Source: Micromonospora rhizosphaerae (GTDB lineage Bacteria; Actinomycetota; Actinomycetes; Mycobacteriales; Micromonosporaceae). Taken from it: 64,000 bases of DNA. The stretch covers positions 4,898,001-4,962,000 of the forward strand of contig NZ_FMHV01000002.1 of NCBI RefSeq assembly GCF_900091465.1. Reading direction: 5' to 3'. Positions 2,887-40,958 of this stretch are shown here, piece by piece (positions within the stretch are counted from its first letter, which is position 1; every line of letters starts with the position of its first letter). Both the position numbers and the translations under genes were made by a program. Under the pieces are notes generated by a model, which was not told the DNA's origin, did no database searches, and saw only the letters and a program-made list of their open reading frames with translations.

Positions 2887-2955
2887 TCGCCGGACCCGGT
2901 GTCGAACCGGGCGGGCCGCCGTTATGAGCAGCAGCTGGACCCACGTCCTCCGGCG
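2887..2955 (-). tRNA. Degenerate tRNA-Met(CAT)-like gene
   Basis: A tRNA-like fold on the minus strand. It has a perfect 7-bp acceptor stem (CGCCGGA/TCCGGCG), a T-arm CCCGG-TTCGACA-CCGGG, and an anticodon arm TGCTG-CTCATAA-CGGCG with anticodon CAT and two wobble pairs. The D-arm is shrunken: GGAC-GTGG-GTCC leaves a 4-base loop and no room for normal positions 8-9. It is 69 nt including the discriminator. It may be missed by automatic tRNA callers. It could be a tRNA pseudogene, or a tRNA mimic ending the rtcB array. Confidence 0.5.
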
Positions 2956-2960
2956 GAGAA

Positions 2961-2978
2961 CCACAGTGGACGACACGA
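2961..2978. repeat. 18-nt motif, partner of the copy at 4897-4914
   Basis: The plus strand reads CCACAGTGGACGACACGA. The reverse complement of 4897-4914 differs at one base. It sits between the Met-like and Cys tRNAs. Whether it is a recombination scar, a processing site or chance is unknown. Confidence 0.6.
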
Positions 2979-2981
2979 TCG

Positions 2982-3052
2982 AGACCGAGGCGGGAATCGA
3001 ACCCGCGTTGACGGTTTTGCAGACCGTTCCCTGGCCACTCGGGCACTCGGTC
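2982..3052 (-). tRNA. tRNA-Cys(GCA)
   Basis: Cloverleaf on the minus strand: acceptor GACCGAG/CTCGGTC, anticodon stem ACGGT/ACCGT with loop CTGCAAA (anticodon GCA), and T-arm GCGGG-TTCGATT-CCCGC. The D-stem is only CCC/GGG and the variable region is 4 nt. No 3' CCA is encoded. It lies 27 bases upstream of the Met-like tRNA in the array. Confidence 0.9.
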
Positions 3053-3067
3053 GGGTGCCGGAACCAG

Positions 3068-3140
3068 TGCCCCCGGCTGGATTCGAACCAGCGACCCCCA
3101 ATTTCGGAAACTGGTGCGCTCTCCGCTGCGCCACGGGGGC
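3068..3140 (-). tRNA. tRNA-Arg(CCG)
   Basis: Cloverleaf on the minus strand: acceptor GCCCCCG/CGGGGGC, D-stem GCGC/GCGC, anticodon stem CCAGT/ATTGG (one G-T pair) with loop TTCCGAA (anticodon CCG), and T-arm GCTGG-TTCGAAT-CCAGC. Well formed; reads CGG codons. Part of the rtcB-associated array. Confidence 0.93.
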
Positions 3141-3145
3141 ATGAG

Positions 3146-3221
3146 CAGCGCGGACGGGATTCGAACCCGCAACGTGTCCCGGGTGAAAGCCGGGCGACTC
3201 TCCCCATTCGTCCACCGCGCC
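3146..3221 (-). tRNA. tRNA-Glu(TTC)
   Basis: Cloverleaf on the minus strand: acceptor GGCGCGG/CCGCGCT with a G-T first pair, short D-stem GAC/GTC, anticodon stem CCCGG/CCGGG with loop CTTTCAC (anticodon TTC), and T-arm GCGGG-TTCGAAT-CCCGT. The variable region is 7 nt, longer than usual, and the D-stem is short, so it looks more divergent than a housekeeping tRNA-Glu. Confidence 0.88.
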
Positions 3222-3237
3222 ATTCGCGTACCCGCCG

Positions 3238-3310
3238 TGCCCCGACCAGGATTCGAACCTGGGCCCTCCGGTTTCGTAGACCGGCGCGCTCTCCGCTGCG
3301 CCACCGGGGC
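3238..3310 (-). tRNA. tRNA-Arg(ACG)
   Basis: Cloverleaf on the minus strand: acceptor GCCCCGG/TCGGGGC, D-stem GCGC/GCGC, anticodon stem CCGGT/ACCGG with loop CTACGAA (anticodon ACG), and T-arm CCAGG-TTCGAAT-CCTGG. Well formed; after A34-to-inosine editing it would read CGT, CGC and CGA. It lies 38 bases downstream of the rtcB stop. Confidence 0.94.
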
Positions 3311-3348
3311 GTACGACCGGCGCCCACCCCCCGCGGGCGCCGGCCGGT

Positions 3349-4548
3349 CTAACCCTTCACGCAGACGACCTGCTTGAGGTGCGCCACCACCTCGACGAGG
3401 TCGTCCTGCTGCGCCATCACCTTGGTGATGTCCTTGTACGCGCCGGGGATCTCGTCGACCACCCCGGCGTCCTTGCGGCACTCCACCCCGGCGGTCTGCC
3501 GCGCCAGGTCGGCGGTGCTGTACGTCCGCTTCGCCTGGCCGCGCGACATCCGCCGCCCGGCCCCGTGCGACGCGGAGCAGTACGCGTCCGGGTTGCCCTT
3601 GCCGCGCACGATGTGCGAGCCGGTGCCCATCGACCCCGGGACGATGCCCAGGTCACCCCGGCCGGCGCGGATGGCACCCTTGCGGGTCACCAGCACCTCC
3701 ACGCCGTCGTAGCTCTCCTCCGCCACGTAGTTGTGGTGACACGAGATGGGCTCGCCGAACGAGACGTGCGGGAACTCGTCGCCGATCACGTTGCAGAGCA
3801 GGGCGAGCATGACGGCTCGGTTGCGCTGCGCGTACTCCTGTGCCCACCAGAGGTCCCGGCGGTAGGCGTCCATCTCCGGGGTGCCGGCGAGGAACACCGC
3901 CAGGTCCCGGTCGGGCAGGTCGACGTTGTGCGGCAGCCCGCGGGCCACCGCCATGTGCCGCTCGGCCAACTCCTTGCCGATGTTGCGGGAGCCGGAGTGC
4001 AGCATCAGCCAGACCTGACCGTCGTCGGGGCCGCCCTGCTCGACGGAGACCTCGATGAAATGGTTGCCGCCGCCGAGGGTCCCCAGCTGCCGCTGCGCCC
4101 GGGTCTCCAGCTGCGCCACCCGGCGGTCCAGGGTGCCGAACCGACGCCAGAAGGCGTCCCAGCCGGCCTGCTCGAGGCCGCGGACCCGGCGCGGGTCGAC
4201 CGCGTCGTCGCGCATCGCGAAGCCGACCGGGATGGCCGCCTCGATGGCCGAGCGCAGCGGGGCGAGGTCGTCCGGCAGGTCGGCCGCGGTGAGCGAGGTC
4301 CGTACGGCGGACATGCCGCAGCCGATGTCGACGCCGACCGCGGCCGGCGAGACGGCCTGCCGCATGGCGATGACCGAGCCGACGGTGGCGCCCTTGCCGA
4401 AGTGCACGTCTGGCATGACGGCGACGCCCTGCACCCAGGGCAGCGCGCCGATGTTGCGCAGCTGCCGCGCGGCCTGCGCCTCGATCGTGTACGGGTCGGT
4501 CCAGACCCGTACCGGCGCCCGGGTGCCGGCCAGCGGGGTGAATCCCAT
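3349..4548 (-). CDS. rtcB: RNA-splicing ligase RtcB
   Basis: A 399-residue RtcB, the GTP/Mn2+-dependent ligase that joins a 2',3'-cyclic phosphate (or 3'-phosphate) end to a 5'-OH end. Such ends are left by many tRNA-cleaving toxins. Family motifs are visible: VMPDVHFGKGATVG, GVDIGCGM with the metal-binding Cys, GTLGGGNHFIE, LMLHSGSRNIG, SCHHNYV, and near the C-terminus YCSASHGAGRRMSR with the guanylylated His in SHGAGR. All expected catalytic residues appear intact. The gene is embedded in a tRNA array, with four tRNAs upstream and five tRNA or tRNA-like genes downstream on the same strand. This suggests a role in tRNA repair (inference). Confidence 0.96.
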   Translation of the reverse strand: MGFTPLAGTRAPVRVWTDPYTIEAQAARQLRNIGALPWVQGVAVMPDVHFGKGATVGSVIAMRQAVSPAAVGVDIGCGMSAVRTSLTAADLPDDLAPLRSAIEAAIPVGFAMRDDAVDPRRVRGLEQAGWDAFWRRFGTLDRRVAQLETRAQRQLGTLGGGNHFIEVSVEQGGPDDGQVWLMLHSGSRNIGKELAERHMAVARGLPHNVDLPDRDLAVFLAGTPEMDAYRRDLWWAQEYAQRNRAVMLALLCNVIGDEFPHVSFGEPISCHHNYVAEESYDGVEVLVTRKGAIRAGRGDLGIVPGSMGTGSHIVRGKGNPDAYCSASHGAGRRMSRGQAKRTYSTADLARQTAGVECRKDAGVVDEIPGAYKDITKVMAQQDDLVEVVAHLKQVVCVKG

Positions 4549-4578
4549 CGTCGTCTCCTCGTGTCGGGGGTGTGGTCG

Positions 4579-4652
4579 AGCGGCTGGCCGGATTCGAACC
4601 GGCGATCTTCACCATGGCGAGGTGACGCGCTGCCTGACTGCGCTACAACCGC
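4579..4652 (-). tRNA. tRNA-Gly(GCC)-like, with C33
   Basis: Cloverleaf on the minus strand: acceptor GCGGTTG/CAGCCGC (one wobble), D-stem GCGC/GCGC, anticodon stem TCACC/GGTGA with loop TCGCCAT, and T-arm GCCGG-TTCGAAT-CCGGC. The central triplet is GCC (Gly), but position 33 is C instead of the nearly universal U33, which would impair decoding. It starts 30 bases upstream of the rtcB start. Confidence 0.75.
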
Positions 4653-4674
4653 ATGGTCCCGGGTGGGACCGGCG

Positions 4675-4747
4675 TAGGCCGTACGGGACTCGAACCCGTA
4701 ACCGCCCGGCTGAGAACCGGGTGAGCTGCCAATTGCTCCAACGGCCC
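4675..4747 (-). tRNA. tRNA-Glu(CTC)
   Basis: Cloverleaf on the minus strand: acceptor GGGCCGT/ACGGCCT (first pair G-T), D-stem GAGC/GCTC, anticodon stem CCCGG/CCGGG with loop TTCTCAG (anticodon CTC), and T-arm ACGGG-TTCGAGT-CCCGT. Well formed apart from the wobble first pair. Confidence 0.9.
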
Positions 4748-4777
4748 GTGCAGGATGGCGGGAACCATCCGGCGAAG

Positions 4778-4850
4778 TCCGGGACCGGGGAATCGAAGCC
4801 CGTGTCTCTCCCGCCCAAGGCGAGCGGGTCAGCCAGCTCCCTCGTCCCGG
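4778..4850 (-). tRNA. tRNA-Pro(TGG), degenerate
   Basis: Minus-strand cloverleaf with a perfect acceptor (CCGGGAC/GTCCCGG). The D-stem is 3 bp (GGG/CCC). The anticodon arm CTCGC-CTTGGGC-GGGAG has a G-G mismatch, and the T-arm CGGGC-TTCGATT-CCCCG has a C-C mismatch. The loop gives anticodon TGG with U33 present. A sound acceptor with weakened arms suggests a relaxed or specialised tRNA rather than a housekeeping copy. Confidence 0.72.
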
Positions 4851-4896
4851 ACGTGTCGCTCCGGCCGGCGCGTCGGGGCGCCGGCCGGGGTCGTGC

Positions 4897-4914
4897 TCAT
4901 GTCGTCCACTGTGG
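4897..4914. repeat. Inverted copy of an 18-nt motif flanking the tRNA/rtcB array
   Basis: Read on the minus strand this is CCACAGTGGACGACATGA. The plus strand at 2961-2978 reads CCACAGTGGACGACACGA, so 17 of 18 bases match in opposite orientation. The two copies bracket rtcB and seven of its tRNAs. The first nine bases are themselves nearly palindromic. Confidence 0.6.
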
Positions 4915-4959
4915 AGTTGAGAAGGAGCGAGGTCGCCGGCCGGGGCCGGGGCACAGGAG

Positions 4960-5032
4960 CAGGGGCGACAGGATTCGAACCTGCAACCATCGGGTTTGGA
5001 ATCCGGTGCTCTTCCGGTTGAGCTACGCCCCT
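4960..5032 (-). tRNA. tRNA-Trp(CCA), divergent
   Basis: Minus-strand cloverleaf: acceptor AGGGGCG/CGCCCCT, D-stem GCTC/GAGC, anticodon loop TTCCAAA (anticodon CCA), and T-arm GCAGG-TTCGAAT-CCTGT. The anticodon stem CCGGA/CCCGA has mismatches at both its outer and inner pairs, unlike a normal housekeeping tRNA-Trp. It is the first tRNA of the array, starting 19 bases after the intrinsic terminator. Confidence 0.82.
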
Positions 5033-5050
5033 GAGCGGAAGTGGGGTGAC

Positions 5051-5089
5051 GAAAAAGCCGCCCGGTCCCCCTTCGCGGGGCGGGCGGCT
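5051..5089 (-). terminator. Intrinsic terminator / candidate attenuator before the tRNA-rtcB array
   Basis: On the minus strand a stem AGCCGCCCG/CGGGCGGCT, with an inner CCCC/GGGG extension, is followed directly by TTTTT. It lies 18 bases after the stop of the 42-codon leader ORF and 19 bases before tRNA-Trp. A transcript from the upstream promoter must read through it to reach the tRNAs and rtcB. Confidence 0.8.
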
Positions 5090-5107
5090 GCGCGTGTCGC
5101 GCTGGCG

Positions 5108-5236
5108 CTAGTCGCGCCGCCACCCCGATTGCCAACGCTGCTGCCGGCACAGGCCCAGGGCTCGTTCGCCTTCGGGCAGCAGGGCACCGCCGCGCGGCAT
5201 GGACCGCGGGGCCTCGGTGCGGGTGCGCTGCGACAC
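5108..5236 (-). CDS. 42-codon leader ORF upstream of the tRNA-rtcB array
   Basis: A GTG start with a good ribosome binding site (GGGAG, 7 bases upstream), ending in TAG before the terminator. The peptide starts MSQRTRTEAPRSMPRGG and ends LCRQQRWQSGWRRD. Its last codons include TGC, CGG, CGT, TGG, GGG, TGG, CGG and CGC: Cys, Arg and Trp codons read by tRNAs of the downstream array, plus a Gly codon. Promoter, short ORF and intrinsic terminator together resemble transcription attenuation of amino-acid operons. It could instead encode a small functional protein. No family is recognised. Confidence 0.6.
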   Translation of the reverse strand: MSQRTRTEAPRSMPRGGALLPEGERALGLCRQQRWQSGWRRD

Positions 5237-5276
5237 GGCGTACTCCCTGGGTTGATCCGGTTGACGTTGCCCGATG

Positions 5277-5305
5277 AAGGTAAGCCCGCCGTGCGGTCGC
5301 CGCAA
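5277..5305 (-). promoter_or_regulatory. Candidate promoter of the leader ORF / tRNA-rtcB unit
   Basis: On the minus strand TTGCGG is followed after 17 bases by TACCTT, a fair match to -35/-10 elements. Transcription would start near 5270, giving a 5' leader of about 34 bases before the GTG at 5236. Confidence 0.5.
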
Positions 5306-5367
5306 TTGATATTCGGCGGTGGCACGGCCGGCGTGCGGCAGGCAACGGTCGGCGGCACGATGTGGAC

Positions 5368-6788: not shown

Positions 6789-8798
6789 TCAGCGCTGATC
6801 GGGGCGGGCGGTGACCCGCCGGGCGACGGCCAGCAGGTAGTCCTTGCGGTTGAGCGGGTTGTGGTCCCAGCGGGGTCGGCTCGGCGCGAGGCCACGGACC
6901 AGCCGGTAGTGGTCGAACTCGGATTCGAGCACGCCCTCGCCCCGGGTCAGCGCCGGCAACTGCTTCTCCAGTGCGTGCACCCGCACGGCCGGCACCTCCC
7001 CCTCCACCAGGTGGGACGTGCCGCGCATGGTGGAGGTCCGGGGTACGGCGTCGAGGCGGGCCAGCACCGGCAGGACCGTGCCGAACAGGTCGGCCGGCAG
7101 GTCGAGGCGGAAGCGGTGCATCGGCTCGTACACCCGGGTCCCGGCGCGGGTGAGGGCGTCCATCAGCACCAGCGGGGTGAGGTTGCGGAAGTCGCCGGCG
7201 GTGCTGGACATGCTCTTGTCGAAGACGCCGTGGGAGTGGCTCTGCCGGGCCCAGTAGCCGCCGTGGGTGAGGGTGACCAGGCAGTCGGTGACCTGCCAGC
7301 CGGACAGGCCCTGCCGCAGGGTCTCCCGGACCGTCTCCTCGATGGCCTTGAGGAAGGCCAGCGGCATCGAGCCGAGTTCGATGCCGAGCCGGAACTCGAC
7401 GCCGCTGCCGATCGGCGCCGGTTCGATCCGCAGGCCGACCGTGCCGAGGAAAGGGTTCGGCTCCTTGCCGATCCACTCGACTGCGGCGCCGACGCCGACC
7501 GGCCGTTCGACACAGACGGTGGTGGTCTCCCGGAAGGTCACCGCCACGCCGTGCTCGTCGGCCAGGGTGGCCTGGATGACCTCCTTCTGCACCTCGCCGT
7601 AGAGGGACACGGAGATCTCCTGCCGGAGGTCGTCCTGCCGGAGGTTGATCAGCGGGTCCTGCTCGGCGAGCTGGGTGAGGGCGGTGTGCAGCGCCGCCCG
7701 GTCGGCCGCCCGGCACGGCACGACGACCGTCTCCAGCGTCGGCGGGGAGAAGTGGTGGCGACCGGCCGGCCGATCGGGCGGCGTGCCGAGCGGGTCGCCG
7801 ATCCGGATGTCGCCCAGCCCCCAGAGCTTGGCGATCCGGCCGGCGCCGACCGACGGGCGGGGCACGGCGTCCCCATCCTCGAACACGCCGATCGCGGTGA
7901 CCTTGGCCTCCTCGTCCCGGCGGAACCGGACCCGGTCGCGGACCCGGATCCTGCCGGCGAAGATCCGGGCGTACGCGATCTTCTCGCCGGCCGGGCCGCG
8001 CTCGACCTTGAAAACCGTGCCGGAGAGCTCGGCGTCCTCGTCGCCCTCGGCCGCCGGCAGCAGCTCCGCGATGCCGGCGATCAGCGCGTCCACCCCGGCC
8101 CCGGTGATCGCCGAGCCGGCGAAGACCGGGTGTACGCGCGCCCGTCCGGTCTGCGCGGCGAGCGCCCGACGCAGCCGGCCGGAGGACACCGCGCTCTCGT
8201 CCTCGACGTACGCGGCGAGCAGCGCGTCGTCGTGCGCGGTGAGCAGGTCGACGAGCCGCTCGGTGAAGCCGGAGTCCTCGGGGCCGAAGGGGACGCAGCG
8301 AGCCGCCCAGGTGCCGGGGGCGTCGACCCGACCGGTGGCGACCACGGCCGGGGTCAGCTTCTCGGCGATCTGGCGCAGCACCCGCTCCGGGTCGGCGCCG
8401 CCCCGGTCCACCTTGTTGACGAAGACCAGGGTCGGGATGCGCAGCCGCTGCAGCGTCCGCATCAGGACCCGGGTCTGCGCCTGGACGCCCTCCACCGCCG
8501 AGACCACCAGCACCGCGCCGTCGAGCACGGCGAGTACCCGCTCGACCTCAGCGATGAAGTCGGGGTGGCCGGGGGTGTCGATCAGGTTGACCGTCACCCC
8601 GTCGACGACGAAGGAGACCACGGCGGAGCGGATGGTGATGCCGCGCTGCCGTTCCAGCGCCATGGTGTCGGTGCGGGTGCTGCCGTCGTCGACGCTGCCG
8701 AGCTGGTCGATGACGCCGGCGCTGTGCAGCAGCCGCTCCGTCAGGCTCGTCTTACCGGCGTCGACATGTGCCAGGATTCCCAGGTTCAACGTTTTCAC
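6789..8798 (-). CDS. TetM-type ribosomal protection GTPase
   Basis: A 669-residue member of the EF-G-derived ribosomal protection family (TetM/TetO/OtrA type), which removes tetracycline from the ribosome or rescues stalled ribosomes. GTPase motifs are intact: AHVDAGKTSL (P-loop), RGITI (switch I), DTPGHPDF, and NKVD near residue 130. Domains II-V follow, including the C-terminal EF-G-like region (HSHGVFDKSMSSTAGDFRNLTPLVLM). The start is GTG at 8798 with AAAGGA 11 bases upstream. A 36-codon ORF overlaps the start. Actual tetracycline resistance cannot be asserted from sequence. Confidence 0.92.
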   Translation of the reverse strand: MKTLNLGILAHVDAGKTSLTERLLHSAGVIDQLGSVDDGSTRTDTMALERQRGITIRSAVVSFVVDGVTVNLIDTPGHPDFIAEVERVLAVLDGAVLVVSAVEGVQAQTRVLMRTLQRLRIPTLVFVNKVDRGGADPERVLRQIAEKLTPAVVATGRVDAPGTWAARCVPFGPEDSGFTERLVDLLTAHDDALLAAYVEDESAVSSGRLRRALAAQTGRARVHPVFAGSAITGAGVDALIAGIAELLPAAEGDEDAELSGTVFKVERGPAGEKIAYARIFAGRIRVRDRVRFRRDEEAKVTAIGVFEDGDAVPRPSVGAGRIAKLWGLGDIRIGDPLGTPPDRPAGRHHFSPPTLETVVVPCRAADRAALHTALTQLAEQDPLINLRQDDLRQEISVSLYGEVQKEVIQATLADEHGVAVTFRETTTVCVERPVGVGAAVEWIGKEPNPFLGTVGLRIEPAPIGSGVEFRLGIELGSMPLAFLKAIEETVRETLRQGLSGWQVTDCLVTLTHGGYWARQSHSHGVFDKSMSSTAGDFRNLTPLVLMDALTRAGTRVYEPMHRFRLDLPADLFGTVLPVLARLDAVPRTSTMRGTSHLVEGEVPAVRVHALEKQLPALTRGEGVLESEFDHYRLVRGLAPSRPRWDHNPLNRKDYLLAVARRVTARPDQR

Positions 8799-38471: not shown

Positions 38472-39914
38472 ATGATCAGATTCCGTACGCCTCAGGCCCG
38501 TCGGCTCCGGATCGTGAGCGTGACGGCCGCCGGCCTCCTCCTCGCCGGCGTGGTCACCGCCCCGCCCAGCAGCGCTCAAGAGACACCACTCAGTGCCGAG
38601 CCCGCCAAACCGGGCACCGGACTCGGCGTCGACGAGATCGCCCACAGCCTCAACATCCGCCAGATCGCCAACCTGCCGAAGCAGGCCCCGTTCAACACCA
38701 CGTCGTCGTTCGGCACCGACATGGCCTTCCAGGGCCACTACGCCTTCGTCGGCAACTACAACGGCTTCGTCATCTACGACATCGCCCGCGCGGACGCGCC
38801 GTCCATCGTGTCGCAGGTGCTCTGCCCCGGCTCGCAGAACGACGTGTCGGTCTACGGCGACCTGCTCTTCCTCTCCACCGACTCCTCGCGCAGCGACGAT
38901 TCCTGCCACAGCGTCTCGCAGTCCGCGACCATCAAGGAGTCCTGGGAGGGCATCAAGGTCTTCGACATCAGCGACAAGACCAGCCCGCGCTACATCAAGT
39001 CGGTTGAGACCGACTGCGGCTCGCACACCCACACCCTCGTCCCAGCCAAGGACGGCACCTCGGTCTACCTCTACGTGTCGTCGTACTTCCCGTCGGACAC
39101 TTTCCCGGACTGCCAGCCGCCGCACGACTCGATCTCCATTGTGAAGGTGCCGCTGAGCGCCCCGACCGACGCGGCGGTGGTGGCCACGCCGAACCTCTTC
39201 CCCGACGGCGGATACAAGGGTTCCAGCACCTCGGCGACCAGCGGCTGCCACGACATCACCGCCTTCCCCGAGAAGGACTTGGCGGCGGGTGCCTGCATGG
39301 GCGACGGCATCCTGATGGACATCTCCGACCGGGAGGCGCCCCGGGTCATCGACCAGGTACGCGACACGAAGAACTTCGCCTTCTGGCACTCGGCGACGTT
39401 CAACAACAGCGGCACCAAGGTGGTCTTCACCGACGAACTCGGCGGTGGCGGCGGCGCGACCTGCAACAAGCAGGTCGGGCCGAACAAGGGCGCGGACGCC
39501 ATCTACGACGTCACCGGCAGCGGCGACGCCCGCTCGCTGGCCTTCCGCAGCTACTACAAGATCCCCCGGGTGAACGCCGACACGGAGAACTGCGTGGCGC
39601 ACAACGGGTCGCTGATCCCGGTGCCCGGCCGGGACATCATGGTCCAGGCGTGGTACCAGGGCGGCATCTCGGTCTGGGACTTCACCGACTCCGCCAACCC
39701 CACCGAGATCGGCTACTGGGAGCGCGGGCCGCTCTCGGCCACCCAGCTCATCCTCGGCGGCTCCTGGTCCGCCTACTACTACAACGGCCACATCTACTCC
39801 AGCGACATCCAGAAGGGCCTGGACGTGCTGGAGATCGACGATCCGCGCACGGCCAACAACACCCGCTTCCAGGAGCTGAACGTGCAGACGCAGCCCAGCT
39901 ACCGGAACAGGTAG
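38472..39914 (+). CDS. Secreted LVIVD-repeat protein
   Basis: A 480-residue exported protein. The ATG at 38472 has GAAGGG eight bases upstream; a GTG three codons earlier sits too close to it. A signal peptide (residues 1-34, ending SSAQ) precedes a beta-propeller-like domain of LVIVD repeats (GHYAFVGNYNGFVIYDIA, GIKVFDISD, GISVWDFTDSANPTEIGYW). Several cysteines suggest disulphides. Function unknown; it shares a divergent promoter region with the DUF305 gene. Confidence 0.85.
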   Translation: MIRFRTPQARRLRIVSVTAAGLLLAGVVTAPPSSAQETPLSAEPAKPGTGLGVDEIAHSLNIRQIANLPKQAPFNTTSSFGTDMAFQGHYAFVGNYNGFVIYDIARADAPSIVSQVLCPGSQNDVSVYGDLLFLSTDSSRSDDSCHSVSQSATIKESWEGIKVFDISDKTSPRYIKSVETDCGSHTHTLVPAKDGTSVYLYVSSYFPSDTFPDCQPPHDSISIVKVPLSAPTDAAVVATPNLFPDGGYKGSSTSATSGCHDITAFPEKDLAAGACMGDGILMDISDREAPRVIDQVRDTKNFAFWHSATFNNSGTKVVFTDELGGGGGATCNKQVGPNKGADAIYDVTGSGDARSLAFRSYYKIPRVNADTENCVAHNGSLIPVPGRDIMVQAWYQGGISVWDFTDSANPTEIGYWERGPLSATQLILGGSWSAYYYNGHIYSSDIQKGLDVLEIDDPRTANNTRFQELNVQTQPSYRNR

Positions 39915-39928
39915 GCGTACCGGCCCCC

Positions 39929-39960
39929 GGGCCCGGTCCCCGCGACAGGGGGCCGGGCCC
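39929..39960. terminator. Hairpin terminator
   Basis: Arms of 13 bases (GGGCCCGGTCCCC and GGGGGCCGGGCCC, one G-T pair) between the converging LVIVD and acyltransferase-like genes. No T-run. Confidence 0.6.
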
Positions 39961-39968
39961 GACCCCGG

Positions 39969-40958
39969 TCAGCCCATTGGCAACTGGTAACGCCGCTCGC
40001 CACCGGTCGCGGTGACCAGCCGCACCTCGCCGCTGCGCAGGCCGTACGTCACCGACCAGCGGGTGTGCGGCTGCCGCACGGCGTCCAGGACGCTCAACGC
40101 CGCGGGGGCGTCCACCACCCCGCCCGCCTTGTCCAGGGCGGCCGCGATCACCCCGTACCGGTGGTCCTGCCGCAACTCCGGCTCGGGTACGCCCACCACC
40201 GGCACGTTGGTCAGCGCCTGCCAGTCGCCCCGGCCCCGCTGGACCCGCATCGTGCCGTCGACGAGCTCGACCACGGCGGACGCGCCCGTGGCGTCGGCGA
40301 GGAGGTAGTGCAGCGGCGGCCCGCCGTCGAAGTCGAGGTTGTAGCGCTCGAACACGGCGATCGCCTCGTCCACCGTGGCGGCGTTGTCAAGCACCAGGCG
40401 GAGAATGCGTACCGAACCGACCGTCGGCCGGCCCGGCACCGGACGCGCGGTCGCCCGGTCGTCGGCGGCCAGGCCCACGGCGAGGCCGCGCTCGTTCATC
40501 CCGTCGAAGGGCAGCAGCGGCGCGTTGAGCAGCCGGCGGTCACCGGCCGGATCGGGTCCCACCCCAAGGTAGGAGATGTCCACCAGGGACACCGAGGCGT
40601 AGCCGTCCGGCGGGTCGGTCCGCAGCACCAGGGCCGGGTTGGGGTCCCAGTCGAAGTTGCGGGCGAACAACGGCCGGCCGCGGTCGCCGAGGGCGGCGAA
40701 GAGCGAGCAGCCGAAGGGGCTCGCCTCGGCCGTGGCGGACGTGCCGACCGTCGGGTCGTAGTCGCCGACGTAGGTCAGCTCGTACAGCGGCAGGTCGTCG
40801 ACCTTGCGCAGGCTGGCCAGGGTCCGCTCGACCTGCCCGGCGTCCTGGCGGGACGCGGTCGGCGTCCCGGCCCGAGGCGACGCCGGGGACTGCGGATGCG
40901 AGCACGAGGTGACCGCGAGCAGCAGGGCGACACCGGTGGCGAGCAGACTCCTGCGCAT
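39969..40958 (-). CDS. Ntn-hydrolase / C45-like lipoprotein
   Basis: A 329-residue lipoprotein (lipobox AVTSC near residue 19). The mature part has FGCSLFAALGD with a probable catalytic Cys, then RPLFARNFDWDPNPAL, the pattern of linear amide C-N hydrolases and acyl-CoA:6-APA acyltransferase-like peptidases. FDGMNERGLAVGLA is also typical. It probably hydrolyses an amide outside the membrane; the substrate is unknown. It converges on the LVIVD gene. Confidence 0.78.
   Translation of the reverse strand: MRRSLLATGVALLLAVTSCSHPQSPASPRAGTPTASRQDAGQVERTLASLRKVDDLPLYELTYVGDYDPTVGTSATAEASPFGCSLFAALGDRGRPLFARNFDWDPNPALVLRTDPPDGYASVSLVDISYLGVGPDPAGDRRLLNAPLLPFDGMNERGLAVGLAADDRATARPVPGRPTVGSVRILRLVLDNAATVDEAIAVFERYNLDFDGGPPLHYLLADATGASAVVELVDGTMRVQRGRGDWQALTNVPVVGVPEPELRQDHRYGVIAAALDKAGGVVDAPAALSVLDAVRQPHTRWSVTYGLRSGEVRLVTATGGERRYQLPMG

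Follow-up and report, generated by a model that had tools for sequence, protein, structure and literature searches.

In Anabaena PCC 7120, a trn operon of 26 tRNAs and the RNA ligase gene rtcB are both under the regulator TrcR (PMC10272220), which sets a precedent for the joint control of spare tRNAs and rtcB. The WblC regulon includes six tRNA genes, tRNA synthetases, and a tetM gene (PMC7157823), and whiB7 is subject to attenuation through an upstream open reading frame (uORF) (Lee et al., 2022, as cited in PMC10287673). In Mycobacterium abscessus, the cutting of tRNA-Ser by VapC5 strongly raises whiB7 (PMC10287673); this is a precedent for the first step of the mechanism proposed below. Here, we describe a unit in the genome of Micromonospora rhizosphaerae (G000:C2, 7.18 Mb) in which an rtcB gene is enclosed by an array of tRNA genes and the whole is preceded by a short leader open reading frame (ORF) and an intrinsic terminator. 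The unit lies in a stretch of 64,000 nucleotides, referred to as the window.

Sequence comparison establishes the parts of the unit, their order and conservation, the redundancy and structural constraint of the tRNAs, and the colinearity of the array with a virus-like contig, L327. With a probability of roughly 0.58, we interpret the unit as a translation-stress operon that combines a WblC-type promoter, an attenuator leader, stand-in tRNAs, and RNA repair, and that shares ancestry with a mobile cassette. Transcription would start at the WblC/WhiB7-type promoter, and a short leader peptide would be encoded first. Ribosomes reaching the leader stop would cover the sequence GGGTGGC, so that the terminator folds and transcription ends ahead of the tRNAs. 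When ribosomes instead pause or fall behind in the leader, owing to a drug, a tRNA shortage, or tRNA cleavage, GGGTGGC would pair with the terminator's 5' arm, and once this antiterminator has formed the polymerase would continue into the tRNAs and rtcB. The output would be stand-in tRNAs together with an RNA ligase able to rejoin cyclic-phosphate/5'-OH RNA ends, which might be those of tRNAs, rRNA, or other RNAs. Translation trouble would both raise WhiB7 activity and slow the leader ribosomes, two effects acting in the same direction. The proposed mobile cassette would consist of the leader, a near-full tRNA set, and rtcB, of which the chromosome would hold part of the set and often the leader and rtcB alone.

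Layout of the tRNA–rtcB unit

On the minus strand, from 5314 to 2961, the window carries the promoter, a 42-codon ORF, the terminator, tRNAs for Trp, Pro, Glu, and Gly, rtcB, and tRNAs for Arg, Glu, Arg, and Cys, in that order. The initial annotation had read these parts, and a Met(CAT)-like gene in addition, on one strand in about 2.4 kb; the parts listed above were confirmed by ARAGORN, Pfam, and reading of the sequence. The individual features are listed below.

5277–5314 (−), WblC/WhiB7-like promoter, GAATAT, 3 bp, TTGCGG, 17 bp, TACCTT
5108–5236 (−), predicted 42-codon leader ORF, running from GTG to TAG and rich in Arg, Gln, and Trp
5119–5125 (−), putative antiterminator 5' strand GGGTGGC, within the Gly-Trp-Arg codons directly before the stop (partial-transcript folding, shuffled control, pair counts)
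5104–5118 (−), hairpin 1, into whose loop the leader stop codon extends (91.3% of cells paired)
5090–5102 (−), hairpin 2, between the leader stop and the terminator (87.6% of cells paired)
5056–5089 (−), intrinsic terminator, AGCCGCCCG...CGGGCGGCT with a T-tract; its 5' arm (5082–5088) also pairs with 5119–5125
4959–5032 (−), tRNA-Trp(CCA) (ARAGORN and Rfam)
4904–4921 (−), CTCAACTCCACAGTGGAC, a conserved spacer element lying between tRNA-Trp and tRNA-Pro and constituting the 5' side of a long-range inverted repeat
4777–4850 (−), tRNA-Pro(TGG) (ARAGORN)
4674–4747 (−), tRNA-Glu(CTC) (ARAGORN and Rfam)
4578–4652 (−), tRNA-Gly(GCC), with an unusual C33 in the anticodon loop (ARAGORN and Rfam)
3349–4548 (−), rtcB, RNA ligase of 399 amino acids, the genome's second RtcB (Pfam)
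3237–3310 (−), tRNA-Arg(ACG) (ARAGORN and Rfam)
3145–3221 (−), tRNA-Glu(TTC) (ARAGORN and Rfam)
3067–3140 (−), tRNA-Arg(CCG) (ARAGORN and Rfam)
2981–3052 (−), tRNA-Cys(GCA) (ARAGORN and Rfam)
2961–2974 (−), TCGTCCACTGTGGT, complement of the spacer element at 4904–4921, with which it could form a stem enclosing the transcript from Pro to Cys
2888–2955 (−), tRNA-Met(CAT)-like sequence, called by neither ARAGORN nor Rfam in the window

All eight array tRNAs were called by ARAGORN on the minus strand, at 2981–5032, and seven of them passed the Rfam gathering score, the Pro tRNA being the exception. The Met(CAT)-like sequence had also been claimed as a gene; it received no call in the window, but a near-identical copy is called tRNA-Met(cat) in the relative L170, and the sequence recurs in L168. 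It may thus be either a remnant or an odd tRNA-like sequence that has been conserved. A generic promoter/terminator scanner reported no promoters and one other terminator-like site in the window, missing both the promoter and the terminator of the array. Outside the unit, a 96-nt tRNA-Asp(GTC) at 39889–39984 (−) was called by ARAGORN without an Rfam match above the gathering score, and it is probably a false call.

The product of the array rtcB is predicted to be an RNA ligase. It matched PF01139 with an E value of 7e-123 over the whole profile (1–426), and it contains DIGCG, GGGNHF, LHSGS, HHN, and SHGAGR, which we take to be the Cys/His metal and guanylylation motifs of RtcB. Its closest solved relatives are TTHA1785 and PH1602. 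The genome has two RtcB proteins, and the array RtcB, only 30% identical to the other, is a divergent second copy.

Conservation of the unit and its relatives on mobile DNA

This rtcB is encoded in 149 of 160 genomes of the genus at E ≤ 1e-100, although a few copies are truncated. A total of 110 genus rtcB loci were read, the window included and one locus being incomplete, and a tRNA was counted if it lay on the same strand, no more than 1 kb upstream or 1.4 kb downstream of rtcB. At least one tRNA was found in 47 of these loci and at least three in 23, with a maximum of 10. The commonest were Glu-CTC (31 copies), Arg-ACG (29), Gly-GCC (24), and Gln-CTG (21), with Trp and Pro also frequent. 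The association of tRNAs with rtcB, whose arrays the initial annotation had proposed to search for in related genomes, recurs within the genus. A nucleotide profile built from 16 leaders detected the leader (E < 1e-5) in 97 of the 110 loci, where it precedes rtcB or the first tRNA; some of these matches are partial and miss the ORF or the terminator. The same profile gave no other match at E ≤ 1e-3 elsewhere in the 110 loci and no match at E ≤ 10 in 75 other loci totalling 657,606 bases, which speaks against a chance occurrence of the leader. The unit had been called self-contained; the combination of leader, tRNAs, and rtcB does recur, but the term was too strong, since 51 of the 97 leader-bearing loci have no nearby tRNA. 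The constant part of the unit is the leader with rtcB. In a quickly made RtcB tree (116 rows), the label "tRNA-less" changed at least 17 times, eight changes being forced by well-supported branches, with gains and losses indistinguishable; this suggests that the tRNAs were gained or lost many times.

Beyond the genus, the locus L244, from another genus of the same family, has 22 tRNAs around rtcB together with the promoter motif and the attenuator. The order of 13 of its tRNAs is common to the contig L327. The tRNA order of the window was not significantly like that of L244 (p 0.15). With the covariance model R1, the attenuator was recognised ahead of either rtcB or its array in eight distinct loci of the family, with E values of 0.0003–0.05; here L057 and L245 were counted as one, and a match at the rtcB end in L267 was excluded. 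In Kribbella (L068), the tRNAs and rtcB follow a similar promoter, a leader ORF that also has 42 codons, and a stem resembling a terminator.

A close mobile counterpart of the array was the IMG/VR contig L327 (104 kb), in which a 39-codon leader ORF and the attenuator (R1, E 2.8e-6) are followed by 33 tRNAs and then by an rtcB 79% identical to that of the window. Near this cassette, the contig also carries a phage-type integrase gene and a PNKP-phosphatase gene (L327:2976-3596), whose product, a PNKP-type 3'-phosphatase, is a possible second RNA-end-healing enzyme. The isoacceptors of the window were colinear with L327 in 8 of 8 cases, and none of 1000 shuffles was as good. Six of the eight window tRNAs, all except Gly and Arg(CCG), were nearer to the L327 copy than to the canonical copies of their own genome, the affinity being strongest for Glu(CTC) (identity 0.90 to L327 vs. 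0.65 to the canonical copies). Neither the Kribbella L068 array nor that of Rhizocola L245 resembled L327 significantly in order (p 0.17 and 0.15, respectively). Among the best 80 virus-collection loci with a related rtcB, 17 have at least three tRNAs in the stretch read; two actinobacterial rtcB plasmids (L283 and L284, among 173 plasmid records) showed no tRNA within 4 kb of rtcB. In the genome G091 (L325, minus strand), a second leader stands ahead of a tRNA array that begins Trp-Pro-Ala-Glu-Gly-Gln, and no rtcB was seen in the stretch that was read. Most likely, the chromosomal unit shares ancestry with the mobile-element cassette, and descent may have run from the mobile element to the chromosome.

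The genome of the window holds a second tRNA array at G000:C2:2662011-2663088 (L031), with 11 ARAGORN calls, one of unassigned anticodon. It is colinear with L327 for 7 of 7 common types, and the promoter motif is absent from the stretch upstream of it.

All eight array isoacceptors have another copy in the genome, duplicates from overlapping loci being set aside. The stems of the array tRNAs are paired in 96.7–100% of cells and show compensatory changes (in 9 of 21 pairs for Arg-ACG, 12 of 21 for Gln, and 8 of 20 for Cys), the structures being predicted from the same alignments. We take this stem conservation with compensatory changes as a mark of use, and the array tRNAs look functional rather than decayed. 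The idea of spare tRNAs placed with a repair enzyme has held up, as redundant isoacceptors and an RNA ligase stand together behind a leader and recur in relatives. The accompanying idea of decoys was dropped as unsupported: the tRNA structure is preserved, the tRNAs look usable, and there is no sign that they were built to be cut.

It is rather unlikely, in our view, that only rtcB and the leader matter to the host and that the tRNAs are passengers from a mobile-element array in the course of being lost. The persistence of the leader and rtcB in the 51 tRNA-less loci, the repeated label changes on the tree, and the colinearity with a virus-like contig fit such a history. However, the cloverleaf stems have been kept through many compensatory changes, and the core isoacceptors (Glu-CTC, Arg-ACG, Gly-GCC, and Gln-CTG) recur, which is not the lasting behaviour of neutral passengers.

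Two anticodon-loop features of the array tRNAs bear on another reading. The array copies of Gly(GCC) have C33 in 20 of 24 cases, whereas U33 is nearly universal in tRNAs. The array Arg tRNAs have A37 in place of GG in 27 of 29 ACG and 6 of 10 CCG copies. Phage tRNAs with altered anticodon loops have been proposed as a counter-defence that outlasts tRNA-cutting defences (PMC10264068), and VapC11 requires GG in its target tRNAs (PMC6459853). As a tentative alternative, the unit may be a mobile counter-defence cassette converted by its host, originally with a full tRNA set, in which the leader gauges the decoding of Cys, Arg, Gln, and Trp codons and a shortage of the tRNAs for them releases the altered-loop tRNAs (Gly C33, Arg A37) along with RtcB; cutting enzymes would miss the altered anticodon loops, and RtcB would mend the tRNAs that had been cut. 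Resistance to VapC was considered as a general rule for the array tRNAs and rejected, since the array Gln tRNA mostly retains GG, which leaves it as only a hint.

The spacer element at 4904–4921 was found in 20 genus loci. In 11 of them, 13–14 of 14 positions pair between the element and its 3' complement, compared with 10–12 in a reversed-element control, and the inverted repeat might enclose the transcript in a stem for processing. The element may also resemble the boxA of rRNA leaders. At G000:C2:4819606 the element occurs a second time, identically, but in antisense orientation within an ORF whose product may resemble a cytochrome b subunit; this copy was dropped as a coincidence.

Promoter type and leader folding

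The WblC consensus has been given as GAAAWY, 3 bp, TKGMNN, 16–19 bp, and TANNNT (PMC7157823). The window promoter, GAATAT-CAA-TTGCGG-17-TACCTT, has one mismatch to GAAAWY and was the sole match to the strict pattern in the whole genome. As a test across loci, the strict consensus with its −10 box proved too narrow and was set aside. A relaxed core (four A/T, 3–4 nt, TTG[AC]) was present in 93 of 99 genus leaders (letter shuffles predict 0.6; 1 antisense). Among the 75 other rtcB loci, nearly all actinobacterial, 53 have it ahead of rtcB (letter shuffles predict 2.2; 3 antisense, 1 downstream). Among 40 loci of the family, 39 of them from other genera, the motif was found in 14, or in 13 when a match in a terminator T-tract is discounted. 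On both strands of the 64-kb window, only two sites with the relaxed motif were found, the array promoter and one before the gene at 6789–8798, and no such promoter site was found in the stretch around the other RtcB gene of the genome. The genome encodes a WhiB protein, L424, with an RGRPRK AT-hook; we take the AT-hook as the hallmark of WhiB7 and L424 as WhiB7-like. The L424 gene is itself preceded by a motif of the same kind, a uORF, and a terminator, as read by eye. Judged from these sequences, the array promoter is a candidate for WblC/WhiB7 control.

The best models for the gene at 6789–8798 (−) are those of tetracycline ribosome protection (Otr(A)/Tet family), with scores below the curated cut-offs. 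The promoter-like site ahead of it, an A/T-run with TTGC, lies at about 8935, and proteins similar to its product are encoded in the vicinity of rtcB in 18 of the 82 loci that exceed 6 kb.

Bacterial tRNA genes are commonly grouped, so the array might be regarded as a plain tRNA operon serving abundant codons during growth, with the short ORF and terminator belonging to an unrelated small upstream gene. This explanation is highly improbable. All eight isoacceptors are redundant, the ORF and terminator stay upstream in most loci, the tRNA-less ones included, as well as on the virus-like contig and in other genera, and the promoter type is common to the tetracycline ribosome-protection-like gene and whiB7.

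An ORF of 36–44 codons with a stop was found in 86 of the 110 genus loci, the stop lying 16–25 nt ahead of the terminator stem and being TAG, TGA, or TAA. In partial transcripts of the window, in which the 3' arm of the terminator is not yet made, GGGTGGC pairs with GCCGCCC, the 5' arm. When the A site was placed at codon −10, codons −6 to −2 paired with the terminator 5' arm in 83 of the 86 leaders (at least four pairs were required; the leaders are related and not independent). This antiterminator was visible in leaders with tRNAs (40 of 42) and without them (43 of 44), and after shuffling of the pre-terminator stretch it appeared in 541 of 1720 cases (31%). As the ribosome passes codon −9 of the window leader, the partial-transcript energy drops stepwise. 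The partial-transcript folding and its shuffled control strengthen the attenuator reading, and the modelled dependence of folding on ribosome position would follow the logic of ribosome-controlled attenuation. Three stem pairs of the terminator have changed on both sides, and the antiterminator pair 13/54 is CG, UG, or UA across leaders. The leader peptide is probably translated. Two codons are kept far better in frame than out of frame: TGG is changed in 18% of cases in frame vs. 67% out of frame, and CAG in 27% vs. 72%.

An Rfam search of the leader returned only tRNA at E < 0.5, and a match to sbcD at E 0.59 was taken as chance. At G000:C2:404857-404933 (L326:1501-1577), the same genome has a promoter-like site, a 29-codon ORF, and an attenuator ahead of an HNH endonuclease gene, which suggests that the switch belongs to a small family.

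A narrower reading would make the leader a specific sensor, in which the array tRNAs serve its Arg, Gln, Trp, and Cys codons, and the loss of these tRNAs stalls the ribosome and induces their replacements along with RtcB. The codons from −13 to −9, whose occupancy frees the antiterminator, are Cys-Arg-Gln-Gln-Arg in the window, and the commonest residues at these positions across the 86 leaders are Cys, Arg, Arg, Gln, and Arg. In loci with at least three tRNAs, in-frame Gln and Trp make up 10.7% and 6.1%, respectively, compared with 0.5–1.8% out of frame. Loci bearing Gln-CTG have more cognate codons than all other leaders (3.5 vs. 1.8, p = 9e-5), and the same holds for Trp (2.6 vs. 1.7, p = 0.002), Glu-CTC (p = 5e-4), Gly-GCC (p = 0.003), and Leu-CAG (n = 4, p = 0.002), with p-values uncorrected for kinship and for the number of tests. 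However, Arg(ACG), Arg(CCG), Cys, Pro, and Leu-GAG show no codon association, and within tRNA-bearing loci the association fades for Trp (p = 0.07) and Glu (p = 0.29). The amino-acid sequence of the leader shows no overall conservation, with a dN/dS of about 1 in frame that does not fall below the out-of-frame value, and TGC is poorly kept in frame (changed in 49% of cases vs. 27% out of frame). In addition, the Trp codons near the stop double as the antiterminator strand, which gives another cause for their conservation, and Arg-rich leaders persist in tRNA-less loci. A codon-matched leader was therefore demoted as the main claim, with Arg and Cys lacking association and dN/dS close to 1; we regard it as doubtful and prefer a general switch for lagging ribosomes.

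Several observations weigh against the translation-stress reading preferred here, beginning with the dN/dS and TGC values just given. The antiterminator covariation concerns one pair only. When the terminator was slid by one column, 23 rather than 20 cells were doubly changed, although only 30% of cells were then paired, compared with 92%. This thin covariation and the mixed codon tests weaken the specific readings. In complete transcripts with the A site at codon −10, the mean stem probability of the terminator had a median of 0.94 and fell below 0.5 in 7 of the 86 leaders, and in the window it was 0.96–0.97 at equilibrium; since the terminator wins at equilibrium, the switch would have to be kinetic. 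A ribosome at the stop covers the antiterminator strand, and the loss of pairing there thus follows by construction. As for the promoter, with the published spacing and −10 box the strict consensus was found among the genus leaders in 28 of 99 in the GAAWWY form and in 1 of 99 in the exact GAAAWY form, and in 0 of 76 other loci. The relaxed core was defined after the sequences had been read, and it is missing in 22 of the 75 other loci and in 26 of the 40 family loci (27 when the T-tract match is discounted). In terms of distribution, 63 of the 110 genus loci have no tRNA, and the leader is below detection (E < 1e-5) in 13. R1 misses the Kribbella L068 leader, and in a class-wide search under stricter filters it matched 3 of 394 genomes, all of this genus.

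The initial annotation had proposed a tRNA damage response. Its stress-responsive part agrees with the WblC-like promoter, the leader ORF, and the alternative antiterminator, but the unit looks like a general translation-stress switch; nothing ties the switch to tRNA damage as such, damage sensors such as RtcR not having been searched for. If the translation-stress reading is true, a single transcript switched on by translation stress in these actinomycetes would deliver both replacement tRNAs and RNA repair, and a homologous switch would be present on a virus-like element. It would also place this RtcB in a WhiB7-type response, with the promoter motif in 53 of 75 other loci, and would offer a testable answer to the question of why tRNA arrays that seem redundant are maintained in bacteria and phages. 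The leader, of about 200 nt, is directly assayable by a reporter.

Comparison with described systems

The pieces of the unit are known; their combination, with rtcB inside a tRNA array, a leader attenuator, and a homologous virus-like unit, was not found in open-licence main texts. The rsr-yrlBA-rtcBA operon under RtcR is alike in that an RtcB operon answers to broken tRNAs (PMC7790460). It differs in its CARF-domain activator, which binds tRNA fragments, and the abstract names no spare tRNA set (PMC7790460).

Large tRNA sets on mobile DNA link the unit to the mycobacterial, plasmid, and phage tRNA arrays (PMC5966550, PMC12803027). The word "ligase" is absent from the main texts of both mycobacterial array papers, and the relevant passages of these and of the phage tRNA paper (PMC5966550, PMC12803027, PMC10264068) mention no leader or attenuator. 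Phages with RtcB and tRNAs have both in one genome, which has been viewed as tRNA repair (PMC7824862); they differ from the unit in that the passages on them describe no leader attenuator (PMC7824862). In the phages Weasels2 and Cece, rtcB lies more than 1 kb from the nearest tRNA, unlike in the array described here.

On the regulatory side, the unit resembles members of the WblC/WhiB7 regulon in the AT-rich element 3 bp ahead of the −35 box (PMC7157823). The word rtcB occurs 0 times in the main text of that paper, and WblC control of the present unit would be an extension made from its sequence. With the whiB7 uORF system, it would share the logic of a short ORF, ribosome stalling, and a terminator (PMC10287673); the whiB7 leader precedes another gene and encodes another leader peptide.

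The Anabaena system is alike in that a single regulator governs spare tRNAs and rtcB, keeping them repressed during normal growth until antibiotics that target translation lift the repression (PMC10272220). There, however, the tRNAs (on a plasmid) and rtcB (on the chromosome) are separate loci, and the regulator is a ribbon-helix-helix repressor (PMC10272220), whereas in the Micromonospora unit rtcB stands within the tRNA array, behind a leader ORF and a terminator.

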